Source: Deferribacter desulfuricans SSM1 | Lineage (GTDB): Bacteria; Chrysiogenota; Deferribacteres; Deferribacterales; Deferribacteraceae | Assembly (NCBI RefSeq): GCF_000010985.1 | Contig: NC_013939.1 | Location: forward strand, 1,207,501-1,271,500 | DNA: 64,000 nt | Reading direction: 5' to 3' | Program-made: the position numbers and the translations under genes | Part shown: positions 36,046-45,676 of the stretch, piece by piece | Position numbering within the stretch: the first letter of the stretch is position 1 | How the letters are laid out: the number at the start of each line of letters is the position of its first letter | Notes under the pieces: model-generated | Databases searched by the model: none | Seen by the model: only the letters and a program-made list of their open reading frames with translations | Told to the model about the DNA's origin: nothing

Positions 36046-36544
36046 AAAAAGCAAGTAATACATTGATTGTAGAATAAACGTAATTTGCACGATTTATTTT
36101 ACTATAGGCAAAAACAGCCAGCGCCAAATACCACCCAATATGCAATGAATAAAAAGTAGATATAAAATTAGTGGGCAAAACTAAACTTATTAAAGCAAAA
36201 ATATCAATGCACTCATATGCCATAAAAACCCTTAAAAAAGCTAAAAACCCAAATTTCTTATTAGGAGATAAAAGAAACAAAAAAACTATGAAAAATAGAG
36301 TTAGCAAAATAGTTTCTATAATATGACCAAAAGAGTATGCAATTTTACCATCTAATCCTTTTACAGGTAGTGAAGTCATAAATAGAAAAACCGTAATCAA
36401 ATTGAAGGTATGTCTGTTATTTAACAACAAAAATAACAAACCTTTTTCACTAAAAAAGGAAGCACTAAATGCTAATTTTATTGTTTTTAAAAGTGATGGA
36501 TACTCAGTATTAATTTTTTTTCTTTTCATCAGTAATGAAGACAT
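36014..36544 (-). CDS. Integral membrane protein of unknown function
   Basis: A 176-residue protein with about five hydrophobic helices (LITVFLFMTSL, IIETILLTLFFIVFLFLL, FLRVFMAYECIDIFALISLVL, WYLALAVFAYS and VLLAFFIVNLL) after a basic N-terminal segment. I do not recognise the family; the layout is Yip1-like but that is weak. It is the last gene of the rtcB operon and overlaps the activator gene by 16 bp. An in-frame ATG at 36529 forms a TGATG stop-start with the activator stop and is an equally good start. Its 3' end overlaps the convergent thioesterase gene. Confidence 0.6.
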   Translation of the reverse strand: MSSLLMKRKKINTEYPSLLKTIKLAFSASFFSEKGLLFLLLNNRHTFNLITVFLFMTSLPVKGLDGKIAYSFGHIIETILLTLFFIVFLFLLSPNKKFGFLAFLRVFMAYECIDIFALISLVLPTNFISTFYSLHIGWYLALAVFAYSKINRANYVYSTINVLLAFFIVNLLPAIL

Positions 36545-37275
36545 CCTATTGCACCATTATATTGTGCATTTTTCACAACTAATATTTTATCATCTAGCAA
36601 TCTTTCAAGAAAATACATCACCCCTTTAAGATTTGCAACACCACCAGAAGCAAAATATTTTTCATTTTTAAATCTTTTTATCATAGGGAATATTCTTTTA
36701 GCAATTGATTCGTTTATCCCTGCTGCAATCTCAGAGATTTTATACCCTTCTGCAATTTTACCAACTATTTCTGACTCGCTAAAAATAGCACAGGTACTAT
36801 TTAATTTTACAGGATTTTTTATCTCATTTGCTAATTCATCAAGAGTTATTCCAAGTATATTAGCACTGTTTTCTAAAAACCTCCCTGTACTTGCTGCACA
36901 TTTATCATTCATAACAAAATCTTCTATATAACCATTTTTTACATAAATAACCTTGGAATCTTGCCCACCGATATCGATTAGAGTGAAGTTTTCATGGTTC
37001 ATCTGTATGAGAGCACCTTTAAAGTGAGCTTTGATTTCAGAAACGATATTTGCGTTTTTGAAAGCAAGGACATTTCTTCCATATCCAGTTGCAGTTATAT
37101 CAACATCATCTATATTTAAAAATGCTTCCGTATCCACAAAAATATTTCCATCTTTTTTAAAGACATATTTTTTGTAAAATTCTATTGTATCAATTTTATC
37201 AAGATAAAGATTATTGGCTTCATCACTATAAGCTATTTTTACAAATCGGCTTCCTAAATCAATACCTACTTTCAT
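36529..37275 (-). CDS. ATPase activator of 2-hydroxyacyl-CoA dehydratase/benzoyl-CoA reductase family
   Basis: A 248-residue ASKHA-fold ATPase of the HgdC/BadF type. VGIDLGSRFVKI is the phosphate loop, and LIDIGGQDSKVIYVKNG follows. The two Cys that bridge a homodimer [4Fe-4S] cluster are present, C126 in NDKCAASTGRFLE and C162 in NSTCAIFSESE. These proteins hydrolyse ATP to push a low-potential electron into a partner [4Fe-4S] protein. The partner is evidently the upstream gene, which overlaps by 4 bp (ATGA). The substrate of the system is unknown. This is the only such pair in the window. Confidence 0.88.
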   Translation of the reverse strand: MKVGIDLGSRFVKIAYSDEANNLYLDKIDTIEFYKKYVFKKDGNIFVDTEAFLNIDDVDITATGYGRNVLAFKNANIVSEIKAHFKGALIQMNHENFTLIDIGGQDSKVIYVKNGYIEDFVMNDKCAASTGRFLENSANILGITLDELANEIKNPVKLNSTCAIFSESEIVGKIAEGYKISEIAAGINESIAKRIFPMIKRFKNEKYFASGGVANLKGVMYFLERLLDDKILVVKNAQYNGAIGCLHY

Positions 37276-38261
37276 CCCTTTTTACTCAAAAGCATCTCAA
37301 TAAAAGACTCTAATCTAATCTTTGTCCTTGCATCGATACCTTCCGGATCATTACCCTCGATAGTAATAACGGGTACATCCAACTCTTCTTTAATAATCAT
37401 ATCTTGAATCTGCCTATAACAGAAAGATTGAACATAATGAATTATACCATCAATTTCTCTATTTTTTATTTCTCTTTTTATATCTTCCAGCCGAAATTTT
37501 ATATCATAAGGGTAAGTGTATTTTACAAATCTCTCAATATAATCATCTTCGATATAAGGGATAGAAAACTGCCGCTGAACCTCATTAAACACTATTTGAC
37601 AATCTCTTTTCTCAATAAATTGATATATATCTGTAAAAATAGTTGGCACCCCTATAAATCCCAGCCTTATTTTTTTATTTACTGGTTTTCTGTTTGAAAC
37701 TTCATCTAAAAACTTATCAAGCTCTTTTTCATAACGGATATAATCAGAGTTAAAATCTGTAGAAGTTACTAACCATAAATGATTTTCAAAACCGGAAACA
37801 TAGCCATTAACCGTATATTCATCAAGCTTAATCAACTTTTCTCTTATTTTGTCAATCCTATCTATAATGGTTTTTACTTTATTCCACCCTACATTCATTT
37901 CTTTCATCAAATTTTCTATCTGATGTTTTAAAAAATTTACTTTATCTTTTTCACCATAAGGGTACGCAAAAGGGATAACTTTCTTTGCTTTAGCTCTAAA
38001 AATTTCTATTAATGCATGAGTATTGGAGCAATCCCCTTCAATAACTCCTATTACTGTATCGATCCCGTTTTCAAAAACAGCCGTATAAATCCCTTTTATC
38101 CAGCTACATGTGTTTCTTGGGAGACCATCCTCTTCAGCCTTTTCTATATATTTATAAGGTGATTTACTTGTTATAAAAATATTGTTTAAGTCAACGGGCA
38201 CTTTTTCAGCAGCAAAAATTATTTCTACTGGAATTGTTGTTGTAAAACCGACTTTATTCAC
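37272..38261 (-). CDS. 2-hydroxyacyl-CoA dehydratase-like protein (HgdB/BcrC family, single subunit)
   Basis: A 329-residue protein of the iron-sulfur dehydratase family. Three Cys in conserved settings can hold a cluster: C52 (RNTCSWIKG), C78 (EGDCSNTHAL) and C281 (QSFCYRQIQD). C221 is extra. TTTIPVEIIFAAEKVPVDLNN near the start matches the family opening. Classical enzymes are heterodimers of two such subunits; here there is only one gene plus the activator, so a homodimer is likely. The family includes dehydratases, benzoyl-CoA reductases and double-cubane-cluster proteins, and sequence alone does not choose among them. It overlaps both neighbours by 4 bp and sits in an operon headed by rtcB. 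No CoA-transferase or acyl-CoA dehydrogenase gene accompanies it. Confidence 0.82.
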   Translation of the reverse strand: MNKVGFTTTIPVEIIFAAEKVPVDLNNIFITSKSPYKYIEKAEEDGLPRNTCSWIKGIYTAVFENGIDTVIGVIEGDCSNTHALIEIFRAKAKKVIPFAYPYGEKDKVNFLKHQIENLMKEMNVGWNKVKTIIDRIDKIREKLIKLDEYTVNGYVSGFENHLWLVTSTDFNSDYIRYEKELDKFLDEVSNRKPVNKKIRLGFIGVPTIFTDIYQFIEKRDCQIVFNEVQRQFSIPYIEDDYIERFVKYTYPYDIKFRLEDIKREIKNREIDGIIHYVQSFCYRQIQDMIIKEELDVPVITIEGNDPEGIDARTKIRLESFIEMLLSKKG

Positions 38262-38557
38262 GATAAAGAAAACTCAATGTATCTTTTTATCTCTTTGTGT
38301 AAACCTTTTCTATTTTGAAAAAGGATATTGTTGTTTTCAAAAAATGCATCCATTTCATGAAAATCAACTACTGCAACTTCTGTCCCATCATCGAGAGAAA
38401 TTTTATAAACTTTAGTAAAATCATTATATTTAACTATATTCCCGTGCATTTTCTTTCTTCTCTTTAAAAATAAAACATCTATTTCAGAATTTTCTAAAAT
38501 ATCAAACTTTACTTCTTCAAATCTCATATCATCAAAAACTGCCATCCACTTTTCCAT
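38258..38557 (-). CDS. Hypothetical protein in rtcB operon
   Basis: A 99-residue acidic soluble protein I cannot assign. It has an aromatic-rich start (MEKWMAVFDD), a beta-hairpin-like KVYKISLDDGTEVAVVDFHEMD and a basic C-terminal helix. It is too short for archease, the known RtcB cofactor (usually ~140 residues), and lacks archease's recognisable motifs. It starts 3 bp after the rtcB stop and overlaps the dehydratase-like gene by 4 bp, so it is almost certainly co-translated with them. It could be an adaptor for either enzyme. No RBS-independent evidence beyond context exists. Confidence 0.6.
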   Translation of the reverse strand: MEKWMAVFDDMRFEEVKFDILENSEIDVLFLKRRKKMHGNIVKYNDFTKVYKISLDDGTEVAVVDFHEMDAFFENNNILFQNRKGLHKEIKRYIEFSLS

Positions 38558-38560
38558 TTT

Positions 38561-40000
38561 TTACCCCTTGATTACACACAATGGTTTTAATTTAGCCACT
38601 TTTTTAGCAATGTCTAAATAATCTACAATTTCTACTACTTTTGAAACATCTTTATAAGCATCAGGCATCTCTTCTTTCAATGTTTTTTTACCTCTACTAA
38701 TTACAATAATGCCTTCCTGCTTCAACTCTGTGGCTATATTTCTATTTTGAGCCATTTTTATAGCTTTATGCCTGCTCAAGACTCTACCAGCACCATGACA
38801 AGCAGAATTAAAACTTCTAACTGGTGCTTTATCACCACCTACTAAAATATATGAGTATCTACCCATATCTCCAGGTATAATTACAGGTTGACCTGTATTT
38901 TTATAATGTGTAGGCAATAATTCAGAGCCTCTCGGTAAAGATCTTGTAGCCCCTTTTCTATGAACTGCTAAAAGCTTTTCCTCTCCATCAATTTCAAATT
39001 TTTCAAATTTTACTATATTGTGGGCAACATCATATAAAAGTGATGGATTTAAATTTTTAACCTTTACTTTAAGTATATCAGCTAACGTATTTATAGCTAA
39101 TGATTGTAAAATCTGTCTGTTAGCCCATGCAAAATTTGCAGCACAACTTAAAGCAGCAAGATACTCCTGCCCCTCAGGAGACAAAACAGGAGCGCAAGCA
39201 AGTTGTTTATCAGGTACATCTATTTGATACTTTTTCAATGCTTTTTCAAAAACATCAAGAAAGTCACTACAAATCTGATGTCCAAGCCCTCTTGAGCCAG
39301 AATGGATTAAAAGGGTTAACTGACCTTTAAACAAGCCCCACTCTTTTGCAATATCTTCTAAAAATATCTCTTCTACATAACCTAACTCTAAAAAATGATT
39401 CCCACTTCCAAGTGTCCCTAATTGGTCATAACCTCTTTCATAGGCTTTATTAGAAACAATATCAGGATTTGCTTCGTCTAACTTGCCAGAAGACTCAGTG
39501 TTTAATAAATCATTCTCATTACCATACCCTTCTTCAACGGCCCAGTAAGAACCTTTTTTCAGTACATTTTTCAACTCTTTCTTTTTAAGTTTTATATTGC
39601 CACCCTCACCTACTCCGCAAGGGATATTGTTATATAAATGTTTTGCAACATCTTTTAAATCCGTTTTAATTTCATCTTTTCCCAAATCAAACTTGATAAG
39701 TCTAACACCACAATTGATATCAAAACCAACACCACCAGGCGTAATTACACCCTCTTTAACATCTGTAGCTACAACACCGCCAATGGGTAACCCATAACCA
39801 TAATGAATATCAGGCATTGCTATAGAAGCTTTTTTAATACCAGGTAACGTGGCAGCATTGACTACTTGATTAGCTGAACCCTCATTTAAGATATCTTCTA
39901 GCATACTTTGATCAGCATAAATGATACCGGGAACTTTCATCCCAATCTTTCCATCTTTTTCAATTTCAAAGATATATCTATCCAGCTGTTTTATTTTCAT
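38561..40000 (-). CDS. rtcB: RNA-splicing ligase RtcB
   Basis: A 479-residue RtcB of normal length. MPDIHYGYGLPIGGV, GGVGFDINCGVRLI (metal-binding Cys), LGSGNHFLELGYV, IHSGSRGLGHQI, YDVAHNIVKFE, HRKGATRSLPRG and CHGAGRVLSRHKA (His-guanylate site region) are the family motifs in order. It joins RNA 2',3'-cyclic phosphate or 3'-phosphate ends to 5'-OH ends using GTP and Mn2+. It heads a five-gene minus-strand operon with genes unrelated to RNA. Archease is not seen. The start ATG has no clear RBS, but the N-terminus matches the family. Confidence 0.95.
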   Translation of the reverse strand: MKIKQLDRYIFEIEKDGKIGMKVPGIIYADQSMLEDILNEGSANQVVNAATLPGIKKASIAMPDIHYGYGLPIGGVVATDVKEGVITPGGVGFDINCGVRLIKFDLGKDEIKTDLKDVAKHLYNNIPCGVGEGGNIKLKKKELKNVLKKGSYWAVEEGYGNENDLLNTESSGKLDEANPDIVSNKAYERGYDQLGTLGSGNHFLELGYVEEIFLEDIAKEWGLFKGQLTLLIHSGSRGLGHQICSDFLDVFEKALKKYQIDVPDKQLACAPVLSPEGQEYLAALSCAANFAWANRQILQSLAINTLADILKVKVKNLNPSLLYDVAHNIVKFEKFEIDGEEKLLAVHRKGATRSLPRGSELLPTHYKNTGQPVIIPGDMGRYSYILVGGDKAPVRSFNSACHGAGRVLSRHKAIKMAQNRNIATELKQEGIIVISRGKKTLKEEMPDAYKDVSKVVEIVDYLDIAKKVAKLKPLCVIKG

Positions 40001-43110: not shown

Positions 43111-44634
43111 TTACATTACTGTATTTTTTAAATGATGAGCATAAATCGCATTTGCACAAATAGTAAGGAATTTCACCATATCACTATCGCTTCTTGAAGT
43201 TATTACAATGGGTGATTTTGCACCAACAACAATATTTGCCACATCTGCTCCCATCGTCATTGCCCAAGATTTATAAAGGAAATTACCAGCTTCAATATGT
43301 GGAACAACAAGTATATCAGCATTTCCAGCCACAGGATTGTCTTTTAAACCTTTTTTCTTGGCTGCTTCCTCATAAAGAGCTAAATCATAAGATAGTGGAC
43401 CATAAACATAAACATTATCATGCCATCTAAGTTTTGACAGTTTTTGCTCCAAAATCGTAGAAGGGATTTTTTCTGTTGGAATTTCGTTGGCATCTAAAAG
43501 AGCCACTCGCACCTCATTCATCCCCAGTGCAAATGCCACATCAATCGCATTATTAACGATATCCTTTGCAAGCTCTAAATCTCCCCCTGGGAACAGCTCT
43601 GGATTTATGGCTGGATCTGTAAGTAATATAAACTTTTCCCTATCAAACAATTCAAATATACTGACAAGACTTATTCTTCTACCTGTAGGGATACCGTGTT
43701 CTTTATTCAAGATCTCTTTCAACATAATAGCTGTGTTAATATTACCTTTCATTAAATAATCAGCTTTTTTCTCTTTTATTAATTCAACAGCTTTCTTTGC
43801 ACATGTTTGATAGTAATCGCTTACCTCATTATCTATATGGACAAAATCATAATGGTTTGAAAAAGATAACAAATTGCTGTATTTATCCAAAAGGTTTGTA
43901 TTATCACCCACTAAAAAAGCTCTATTTATTAAGCCTTCTATAATCGCTTTATTCAATGCTTCTATTGACGAATCATCGGGATTTATAAGTACAATGTTCT
44001 GCTTGCCAATCGCTTTTGCAGCACTAATTAAATCTTTCATCTTTTTACCTTTAGTTTTATAAAGCATTGTATCACCATAATAAATGGTAGCAAAAATTCT
44101 TGATTTGTCTGTAAGTGATTCAATTTTGTGTTTTAAAGATGAATCAAAATATATCGTATCCCCAACATCCAAAATATATTCTTTTTCATCAATTGTAAGC
44201 TTTACTTTACCTTCTATCAGATAAATAAACTCTTCTCCATTGTGCACACTTTCATCGATATCGATAGCTTTAGTTTTATAAATATCAACAAGAAAAGGCT
44301 CTACTTCTTTATTTGAAAATTTGGGAGCAAGATTTTCATAAACTAGATATTCTTTCCTTTTGATAACAACTCTTTCCTGAGGTGTTGTTTTTACCACTTT
44401 TTTCTCATAATCATCCGTACCATACAAAAGCTGAGAGACCGTGACATTTAAAAATGATGAAATTTTTAAAAGTTGTGAAACAGAAGGTTGAACTTCCCCA
44501 TTTAATATTAAATTAAACTCTTCCTCATCTATTTTCAGTAAATCTAAAATCTCTTCTTTATCCAACCCCTTTTTAGCGAGCAACTTTTTAATATTATCAC
44601 CTGTATTTATAAACTTATTTGTAAATCTTTGCAT
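43111..44634 (-). CDS. HTH-cupin-phosphotransbutyrylase fusion
   Basis: A 507-residue three-domain protein. Residues ~12-72 are an XRE-type helix-turn-helix (NIKKLLAKKGLDKEEILDLL...PSVSQLLKISSFLNVTVSQL). Residues ~95-187 are a cupin barrel (HNGEEFIYLIEGKVKLTI, with H131, E135 and H169 as possible metal ligands). Residues ~199-507 are a complete phosphate butyryl/acetyl-transferase (IVLINPDDSSIEALNKA, YLMKGNINTAIMLKEILN, DPAINPELFPGG, VAGNADILVVPHIEAGN). The enzyme part makes butyryl-phosphate from butyryl-CoA. The N-terminal part is built like a free-standing HTH-cupin regulator. It overlaps the buk gene by 20 bp; GGGGAAG precedes its ATG. The frame is continuous, so this is not two adjacent genes. 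Confidence 0.88.
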   Translation of the reverse strand: MQRFTNKFINTGDNIKKLLAKKGLDKEEILDLLKIDEEEFNLILNGEVQPSVSQLLKISSFLNVTVSQLLYGTDDYEKKVVKTTPQERVVIKRKEYLVYENLAPKFSNKEVEPFLVDIYKTKAIDIDESVHNGEEFIYLIEGKVKLTIDEKEYILDVGDTIYFDSSLKHKIESLTDKSRIFATIYYGDTMLYKTKGKKMKDLISAAKAIGKQNIVLINPDDSSIEALNKAIIEGLINRAFLVGDNTNLLDKYSNLLSFSNHYDFVHIDNEVSDYYQTCAKKAVELIKEKKADYLMKGNINTAIMLKEILNKEHGIPTGRRISLVSIFELFDREKFILLTDPAINPELFPGGDLELAKDIVNNAIDVAFALGMNEVRVALLDANEIPTEKIPSTILEQKLSKLRWHDNVYVYGPLSYDLALYEEAAKKKGLKDNPVAGNADILVVPHIEAGNFLYKSWAMTMGADVANIVVGAKSPIVITSRSDSDMVKFLTICANAIYAHHLKNTVM

Positions 44635-45676
44635 TTTCTTCCCCTTTCAAAACTCTTAATGCTCCATTTACAAGAGCCTCTATCTCATATTCTCCTGGTA
44701 TAACAAAAACTTTATCTATAAATTTTAAATAGTCTTTTACTTTACTCATAAAAAATTCACTTTTTGCAAGACCACCAGTAAAAACAACAGCATCAACATC
44801 ACCTTTTGCAACAGAAAAGAGTGAACCTATCTCTTTAACAATATTGTATATAAAAGCATCAACAACCTTTTTTACATAATCATCATTATGATATTTACTT
44901 TCCACTTCCTTCATATTTTTGGTTTTTAAATGGGAATAAATACCAGCCTCTTTTGATATTATTCTTTTAAGTTGATTTAAATCTAAAGAATTTTGCTGGA
45001 GATACTCAATCAAACCATCTAAAGGTAATCCACCTGCTCTTTCCACAGCAAACGGACCATCACCATCAAGCCCATTATTAACATCTACAACTTTCCCATA
45101 TTTATGTAAGCCAATTGTAATTCCACCACCAAGATGGGCAACAATAAGTACGCAATCATGATATTTCTTCTTTAATTCATTTTCAGCAACTCTTCTTGCC
45201 ACCTCCTTATGATTCAGAGCGTGAAATTTACTCTTTCTTTCTATATCTTTTAAACCTGTAATTTTGGCAATTTCCCACATTTCATCAATCACAGGAGGAT
45301 CAACAATGTATGCGTTACAACCGTATATATCTGCAAATCGTTTTGCAAGAGTTCCTCCAAGATTTGCAGGATGCTCCCCATTTAAGCCATTTCTTAAATC
45401 TGCTAACATCTTATCATTTACTAAATAAACTCCACCTTCAATTGGCTTCAACAATCCGCCCCTTGCAACCACTGCATCAAACTGCAAATCTCCAAATCCA
45501 TTTTCGTTCAAAAACTGTTTAATATTATTAAACCTTATCTCTTCTTGATCTATTACATTTTTTATTTTTAAGAATTCATCACTTAGATGCTCCACACTAT
45601 TTTTGATTAATTTTTTATTATGAGATACACCAACTTTAGTGCTGGTAGATCCAGGATCAATAGCTAATATATACAT
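44615..45676 (-). CDS. buk: Butyrate kinase
   Basis: A 353-residue acetate/butyrate kinase-family ASKHA protein. ILAIDPGSTSTKVGV is the phosphate loop, AVVARGGLLKPIEGGVY and HEPANLGG-like EHPANLGGTLAKRFAD are butyrate-kinase features, and IVAHLGGGITIGLHKYGK and VFTGGLAKSEFF complete the ATP site. It converts butyryl-phosphate (or a branched acyl-phosphate) and ADP to acid and ATP. It is the first gene of a two-gene operon with the HTH-cupin-Ptb fusion, which makes its substrate. AGAGG precedes the ATG. Branched-chain acids from amino acid catabolism are an alternative physiological substrate. Confidence 0.94.
   Translation of the reverse strand: MYILAIDPGSTSTKVGVSHNKKLIKNSVEHLSDEFLKIKNVIDQEEIRFNNIKQFLNENGFGDLQFDAVVARGGLLKPIEGGVYLVNDKMLADLRNGLNGEHPANLGGTLAKRFADIYGCNAYIVDPPVIDEMWEIAKITGLKDIERKSKFHALNHKEVARRVAENELKKKYHDCVLIVAHLGGGITIGLHKYGKVVDVNNGLDGDGPFAVERAGGLPLDGLIEYLQQNSLDLNQLKRIISKEAGIYSHLKTKNMKEVESKYHNDDYVKKVVDAFIYNIVKEIGSLFSVAKGDVDAVVFTGGLAKSEFFMSKVKDYLKFIDKVFVIPGEYEIEALVNGALRVLKGEENAKIYK

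Follow-up and report, generated by a model that had tools for sequence, protein, structure and literature searches.

A fused HTH-cupin-phosphotransacylase encoded next to butyrate kinase: an enzyme that may carry a former transcription regulator

Introduction

Why would a protein with the layout of a transcription regulator be joined in a single chain to a complete metabolic enzyme, and does the regulator half still read DNA? This question is raised by a gene of Deferribacter desulfuricans SSM1, found at positions 43111-44634 (minus strand) of the window, the 64,000-nucleotide stretch of DNA analysed here. The encoded protein incorporates a helix-turn-helix (HTH) domain, a cupin barrel and a phosphotransbutyrylase (Ptb) domain, and its gene directly follows buk, which encodes butyrate kinase (Buk). 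The trigger enzyme PutA, which carries an enzyme and a DNA-binding-type domain in one chain and binds DNA, offers one model, and a preliminary description of the locus had suggested that the fusion might regulate transcription in a similar way. The same description knew of no characterised protein with this joining, and in the literature that we searched there was likewise no account of an HTH + cupin + PTA_PTB architecture.

We propose a different reading, which we regard as the probable one overall, namely that the fusion is an active phosphotransacylase with an ex-regulator module that senses a ligand or oligomerises on behalf of the Ptb-Buk pair. If true, nature would here have provided a clean example of a metabolic enzyme that took over a transcription regulator, which then lost its DNA reading; free relatives in the same genomes that kept their DNA-reading features would serve as an internal control.

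A single gene with three domains

The open reading frame begins with ATG, encodes 507 amino acids and contains no internal stops. From the N- to the C-terminus the protein comprises an XRE-type HTH domain (residues 12-72; 44419-44601, minus strand, as are all features below), a cupin barrel (residues 98-185; 44080-44343) and a full-length Ptb domain (residues 197-502; 43129-44046). Pfam places HTH_26 at residues 14-71, Cupin_2 at 125-178 and PTA_PTB at 278-486, and the NCBIfam phosphate butyryltransferase models stretch the enzyme domain to 197-502. A Shine-Dalgarno-like GGGGAAG (44638-44644) lies 3 nt 5' of the start codon, within the end of buk. The AlphaFold2 model has a mean pLDDT of 80.3 and a pTM of 0.67.

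The continuous frame recorded in the preliminary description is therefore borne out by both the reading frame and the domain matches. That description also named an assembly frameshift joining two genes as something that would speak against it. Because the uninterrupted three-domain architecture recurs in 24 genomes, with a conserved linker and M199 present in 24/24, a frameshift or chance joining is refuted by the orthologues and has next to no probability left, and the HTH-cupin-Ptb fusion is real and not an assembly artefact. Two of the fused genes (L011 and L012) had seemed to have stops inside; these fall upstream of the true Met, outside the gene.

Distribution and origin

We read 24 distinct genes for the three-domain fusion in 24 bacterial genomes belonging to three lineages. 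Full-length matches to the query protein were found in 9 of the 51 genomes of its phylum (the Deferribacterota sample), and scanning a single genome from each species brought in one MAG each of the Desulfurellales and the Desulfobacterales as well as two Desulfoluna. With a 13-row profile, 7 of 25 genomes were matched in the phylum to which the Desulfurellales MAG belongs, eight fusions were found among 242 genomes of the Desulfoluna order, and a wider sample of the phylum of that order gave 1/395. The clostridial sample yielded no fusion in 348 genomes, a weak negative since that sample had no positive control. No solo Ptb was detected in the Deferribacterota sample at E<=1e-20. The window genome (2,542,933 bases, of which 2,234,389 are in the first of its 2 contigs) contains no other Ptb; of its two other PTA_PTB genes, one encodes a Pta and adjoins an acetate-kinase-like gene, and the other encodes an ME-PTA-like hybrid (L002).

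In a tree of 60 HTH-cupins all 24 fused proteins fall on one side of a branch with support of 100/100. In the Ptb tree they group, again at 100/100, with two solo Ptb proteins (L096 and L097), and 44% of bootstrap trees hold the fused proteins on one side. We suggest that an HTH-cupin transcription regulator was captured once, by gene fusion, and gave rise to the N-terminal half. The two solo enzymes belong to the same Ptb group and adjoin buk without the N-terminal half, so that the module is dispensable there. We considered L096 and L097 as relics of a fusion; the gap at these loci showed no trace of an HTH-cupin, and on the Ptb tree the two may either have lost the module or never have had it.

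The phosphotransacylase half and its pairing with buk

The enzyme domain scores 103 bits against PTA_PTB (PF01515; cut-off 24) and 219 bits against the NCBIfam Ptb model. Its AlphaFold2 model superimposes on the phosphotransbutyrylase of Clostridium acetobutylicum (7vg9) with a Z of 34.8, an rmsd of 2.0 and 35% identity over 287 residues. Twelve residues (K296, G297, N300, D340, N344, G412, P413, D417, N451, S480, R481 and D483) are the same in 24/24 fused proteins, and in an alignment with Pta and solo Ptb proteins S480/R481 coincide with the conserved SR of Pta. The motifs MKGxxNT/S, TDP.IN, GPLSYDLA, VAGxADI, GN.LYK and TSRSD are retained, and the mean entropy of the domain, 0.93 bits, is the lowest among the regions of the fusion. 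With its active-site residues invariant and its fold that of 7vg9, the full-length Ptb domain noted previously looks catalytically complete, and from its sequence it is very probably an active phosphotransacylase.

Its substrate is another matter. The fusion reaches 216.8 bits against the TIGR02706 equivalog, about half the cut-off of 410.5, and we therefore do not claim butyrate specificity; the substrate may differ, and we predict a short or branched acyl-CoA. The fusion resembles the C. acetobutylicum enzyme of the ptb-buk pair in fold, motifs and pairing with buk, but that enzyme has no N-terminal module, and in the fusion the gene order is buk and then ptb. Another N-terminal domain joined to a Ptb-like domain is found in the enoyl-CoA hydratase/phosphate acetyltransferase family (PRK08190/NF006045), which matches residues 195-503; there, however, the N-terminal partner is a hydratase, and the score of 196 bits falls short of the cut-off of 282.

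The adjoining buk (44615-45676) encodes 353 amino acids directly upstream and scores 417.2 bits against TIGR02707, above the cut-off of 289.1. Its end overlaps the start of the fusion by 20 bp (44615-44634), as first described, and translational coupling of the two genes is likely. buk is the nearest conserved upstream gene on the same strand in 23/24 fusion loci, with an overlap or a gap of <=12 nt in 19/23 and a distance of 117-568 nt in four Desulfobacterales loci. The exception, L098, has no buk nearby, and its genome has buk and a solo Ptb elsewhere; this genome (G491), with the fusion at L098 and the separate pair at L097, offers a natural within-genome comparison.

Does the HTH domain read DNA?

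The HTH fold itself is kept. HTH_26 gives 24.7 bits (cut-off 22), and the AlphaFold2 model has the expected five helices (residues 11-22, 26-33, 37-44, 52-61 and 66-71). HTH_3 (PF01381), however, gives 18.9 bits against a cut-off of 23, compared with 57.5 bits for the free HTH-cupin of locus L105.

The recognition helix region (residues 35-45, IDEEEFNLILN; 44500-44532) is the fastest-evolving part of the fused protein, with a mean pairwise identity among the 24 of 21%, compared with 56% for the cupin. Within families its identity is 31-42%, whereas canonical free HTH-cupins of similar cupin divergence retain 92-100%, and in matched genomes the helix is invariant at 11/11 positions in the free HTH-cupins and at 1-4/11 in the fused proteins. 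Arg19 and Glu44, the hallmark helix 1-helix 3 salt-bridge pair of XRE proteins known from 434 repressor, are each present in 33/36 free proteins but in 0/24 and 3/24 fused proteins, respectively, where the replacements are mostly hydrophobic. In two close pairs (L059/L061 and L018/L019) pN is 0.18-0.21 in helices 2-3 and 0.02-0.03 in helices 4-5 and Ptb, so that nonsynonymous change in helices 2-3 is about 10 times that in helices 4-5. The mean net charge of the HTH is -1.8 in the fused and +2.3 in the free proteins, a comparison between related sequences. Thus, in the fused proteins the recognition helix is hypervariable and acidic and helices 4-5 are conserved. Five measures agree, and in our judgement specific DNA reading has probably been lost or strongly relaxed.

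The loss of DNA-contacting residues, which the preliminary description had named, together with a lack of binding in vitro, as speaking against it, is largely what the sequences show. Residual or altered binding is possible nevertheless: the linker after the HTH remains basic and the HTH core is kept, which leaves room for weak or non-specific DNA binding, and a fast-evolving recognition helix could also track changing operators. The nearest free group (L021-L030) has an intermediate recognition helix identity of 58%, and because these proteins have themselves partly drifted, the drift may predate the fusion. One of them, L021, is an HTH-cupin (281-919) whose gene immediately precedes that of a nucleotide-cyclase-like protein of the DisA_N type (DACND-DACNH-DAC; 978-2420).

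Of the HTH-cupins in which such earlier drift may have started, two of those scanned (L068 and L072) are found beside genes of the acyl-CoA synthetase type. In the Desulfobacterales, the free HTH-cupins L072, L076 and L077 have a one-residue insertion and an altered recognition helix and adjoin an AMP-binding acyl-CoA synthetase; this is possibly a second example of drift in an HTH-cupin that is linked to an enzyme forming acyl-CoA.

Who regulates the operon?

All neighbours other than buk vary between families of fusion loci, so the only constant regulatory target would be the fusion's own operon. In L105 and L108 the gene run consists of a free HTH-cupin, subunits of a 2-oxoacid:ferredoxin oxidoreductase (PF01558, a flavin/FeS subunit, PF01855 and PF02775), buk and the fusion; in L106 the fetched DNA ends within the free HTH-cupin, and L107 has just the later oxidoreductase genes before buk-fusion. 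The conversion of the 2-oxo acids of amino acids to acyl-CoA and then to acid and ATP is a textbook route, and the L105/L108 gene run matches it. Since the operon is already headed by a separate, canonical HTH-cupin in several relatives, the post of regulator there is already filled. Six POR-gamma genes are present in the window genome, all away from the fusion locus, and downstream of the fusion there is a gene for a polar amino-acid transporter. Phosphoglycerate-mutase-like, LUD-domain and DUF815 ATPase genes precede buk-fusion in some of the Desulfurellales group (L016, L103 and L104).

In Desulfoluna butyratoxydans the region upstream of buk contains an exact 16-bp palindrome, TTTACGTTAACGTAAA (L115), whose only other occurrence in the 6.4-Mb genome is upstream of an acyl-CoA-synthetase-like gene (L117) that adjoins a gene for a MerR-family regulator. 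These sites look like a small regulon of a MerR-family protein, and their occurrence at a MerR-adjacent promoter suggests that some other regulator, and not the fusion, acts in Desulfoluna, which is one lineage only. In Desulfoluna spongiiphila (L116) the palindrome is also found upstream of an acyl-CoA-synthetase-like gene. Between the buk upstream DNA of the window and that of its sister genome no palindrome with 7-bp arms is common, and we rejected a shared operator for the fusion on these grounds; the short AT-rich palindromes at other loci are inconsistent between families.

These observations bear on three ways in which the fusion might still act on transcription. It could be a bifunctional flux sensor, in which the fused HTH-cupin controls buk-ptb transcription, Ptb carries the flux and the cupin binds the acyl phosphate or acid product, with fast-evolving operators or pairing with a free HTH-cupin as the route that may lead to transcription; we think this rather unlikely. 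The trigger enzyme of the preliminary description, in which the HTH would bind at the promoter of buk, with acyl-CoA/acyl-phosphate or a ligand of the cupin switching that binding, in principle as in PutA, is unlikely: the retained HTH fold with HTH_26 above its cut-off suits it, and autoregulation would account for the constant linkage to buk, but the hypervariable, acidic recognition helix, the loss of the Arg-Glu pair and the low HTH_3 score all argue against it, these features being kept in free HTH-cupins, as do the lack of a palindrome common to window and sister genome and the different regulator indicated in Desulfoluna. PutA binds DNA, whereas in the fusion the DNA-reading helix is not conserved. 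Finally, the fused protein might not bind DNA itself, dimerising instead through helices 4-5 with a free HTH-cupin and relaying flux information to it. The conservation of helices 4-5 while the DNA surface drifts would fit, as would the free HTH-cupin at the operon head in L105, L106 and L108, but the window genome has no other HTH-cupin at E<=1e-20 and most fusion loci have no free HTH-cupin as a neighbour, which makes such a partnership quite improbable.

The cupin half

The cupin scores 47.6 bits against Cupin_2 (PF07883; cut-off 27.2). The possible metal ligands pointed out in the preliminary description, H131, E135 and H169, hold up: none of them varies in the fused proteins (24/24) or in the free HTH-cupins (36/36). 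By sequence profile the N-terminal half matches the HTH-cupin (XRE-cupin) regulator 1y9q with an E of 3e-17, and by fold it matches over residues 6-188 with a Z of 15.4-16.4; it also gives 40 bits with PuuR (NF007408). It shares the two-domain layout of such regulators but differs in its drifted recognition helix, the missing Arg-Glu pair and the enzyme attached at the C-terminus. By score the fusion belongs to the PTA_PTB superfamily and to Cupin_2, and by fold only to the XRE regulators, without their functional hallmarks.

The next relatives by profile and fold are the HTH-cupin enzymes HppE, Psf4 and MPnS. HppE and Psf4, of the hydroxypropylphosphonate epoxidase class, combine an HTH-like domain with a cupin and a 2-His-1-Glu triad, and are precedents for an HTH-cupin protein that acts as an enzyme and not as a regulator. 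The fusion could then be bifunctional, its cupin being an HppE-like mononuclear metal enzyme: these phosphonate enzymes are the top Foldseek matches of the N-terminal model, H131/E135/H169 map on H138/E142/H180 of HppE, and Y99 corresponds to its Y105. However, K23, R97 and N135, presumably the substrate-binding residues of HppE, have no conserved counterparts in the fusion, and we rejected an HppE-type phosphonate site for this reason. Moreover, the full-length fit is better for 1y9q (Z 16.4 over 170 residues, against 13.7 over 110), the triad is just as conserved in free HTH-cupins, and HppE and Psf4 carry no second fused enzyme. The nearness to HppE may be partly due to the scarcity of full-length HTH-cupin structures, and we consider a second catalytic activity in the cupin very improbable. 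With the triad invariant and the other HppE ligands, apart from Y105, not kept, the cupin has probably retained the ability to bind a metal and some ligand.

A proposed role for the captured module

We suggest that the Ptb-type fusion and butyrate kinase, made from one transcript, would make acyl phosphate from a short or branched acyl-CoA and phosphate, and from this the acid and ATP, although the pair could also run in reverse and activate an acid. After the fusion event the HTH would have lost sequence-specific DNA reading, its recognition helix drifting as conservation was maintained in the cupin and in the C-terminal helices of the HTH. The N-terminal half may now act on the enzyme, with the cupin binding a metal and a small ligand and the cupin and HTH core holding subunits together and/or tuning Ptb activity. 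By elimination, we put the chance that the N-terminal half is a ligand-sensing or oligomerising module at about even. Allosteric control, the identity of the ligand and the direction of flux are putative elements of this scheme.

The hybrid malic enzyme MaeB (ME-PTA) provides a parallel, as its phosphotransacylase-like domain senses acetyl-CoA for the other enzyme (PMC7902834). Both proteins join a phosphotransacylase-fold domain to another protein, an arrangement that couples function to the level of acyl-CoA in MaeB and may do so in the fusion. The sensor in MaeB, however, is the PTA domain, from which critical catalytic residues are missing, whereas in the fusion the catalytic motif of Ptb is intact and sensing would fall to the N-terminal half. 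By analogy, the fusion may work like MaeB in reverse. If the proposed role is correct, the fusion would show how a one-component regulator can turn into an allosteric domain, and would constitute an undescribed control point in the ATP-yielding acyl-CoA/Ptb/Buk pathway of anaerobic bacteria.

Other genes of the window

Elsewhere in the window (36529-40000, minus strand), an RtcB RNA ligase gene (PF01139) is tightly clustered with a 99-amino-acid open reading frame that has no Pfam match. The same cluster also encodes a lone protein resembling the D component of 2-hydroxyacyl-CoA dehydratase (PF06050) and an ATPase of the BadF/BcrA type (PF01869); it is odd to find an RNA ligase gene together with genes of the dehydratase type.
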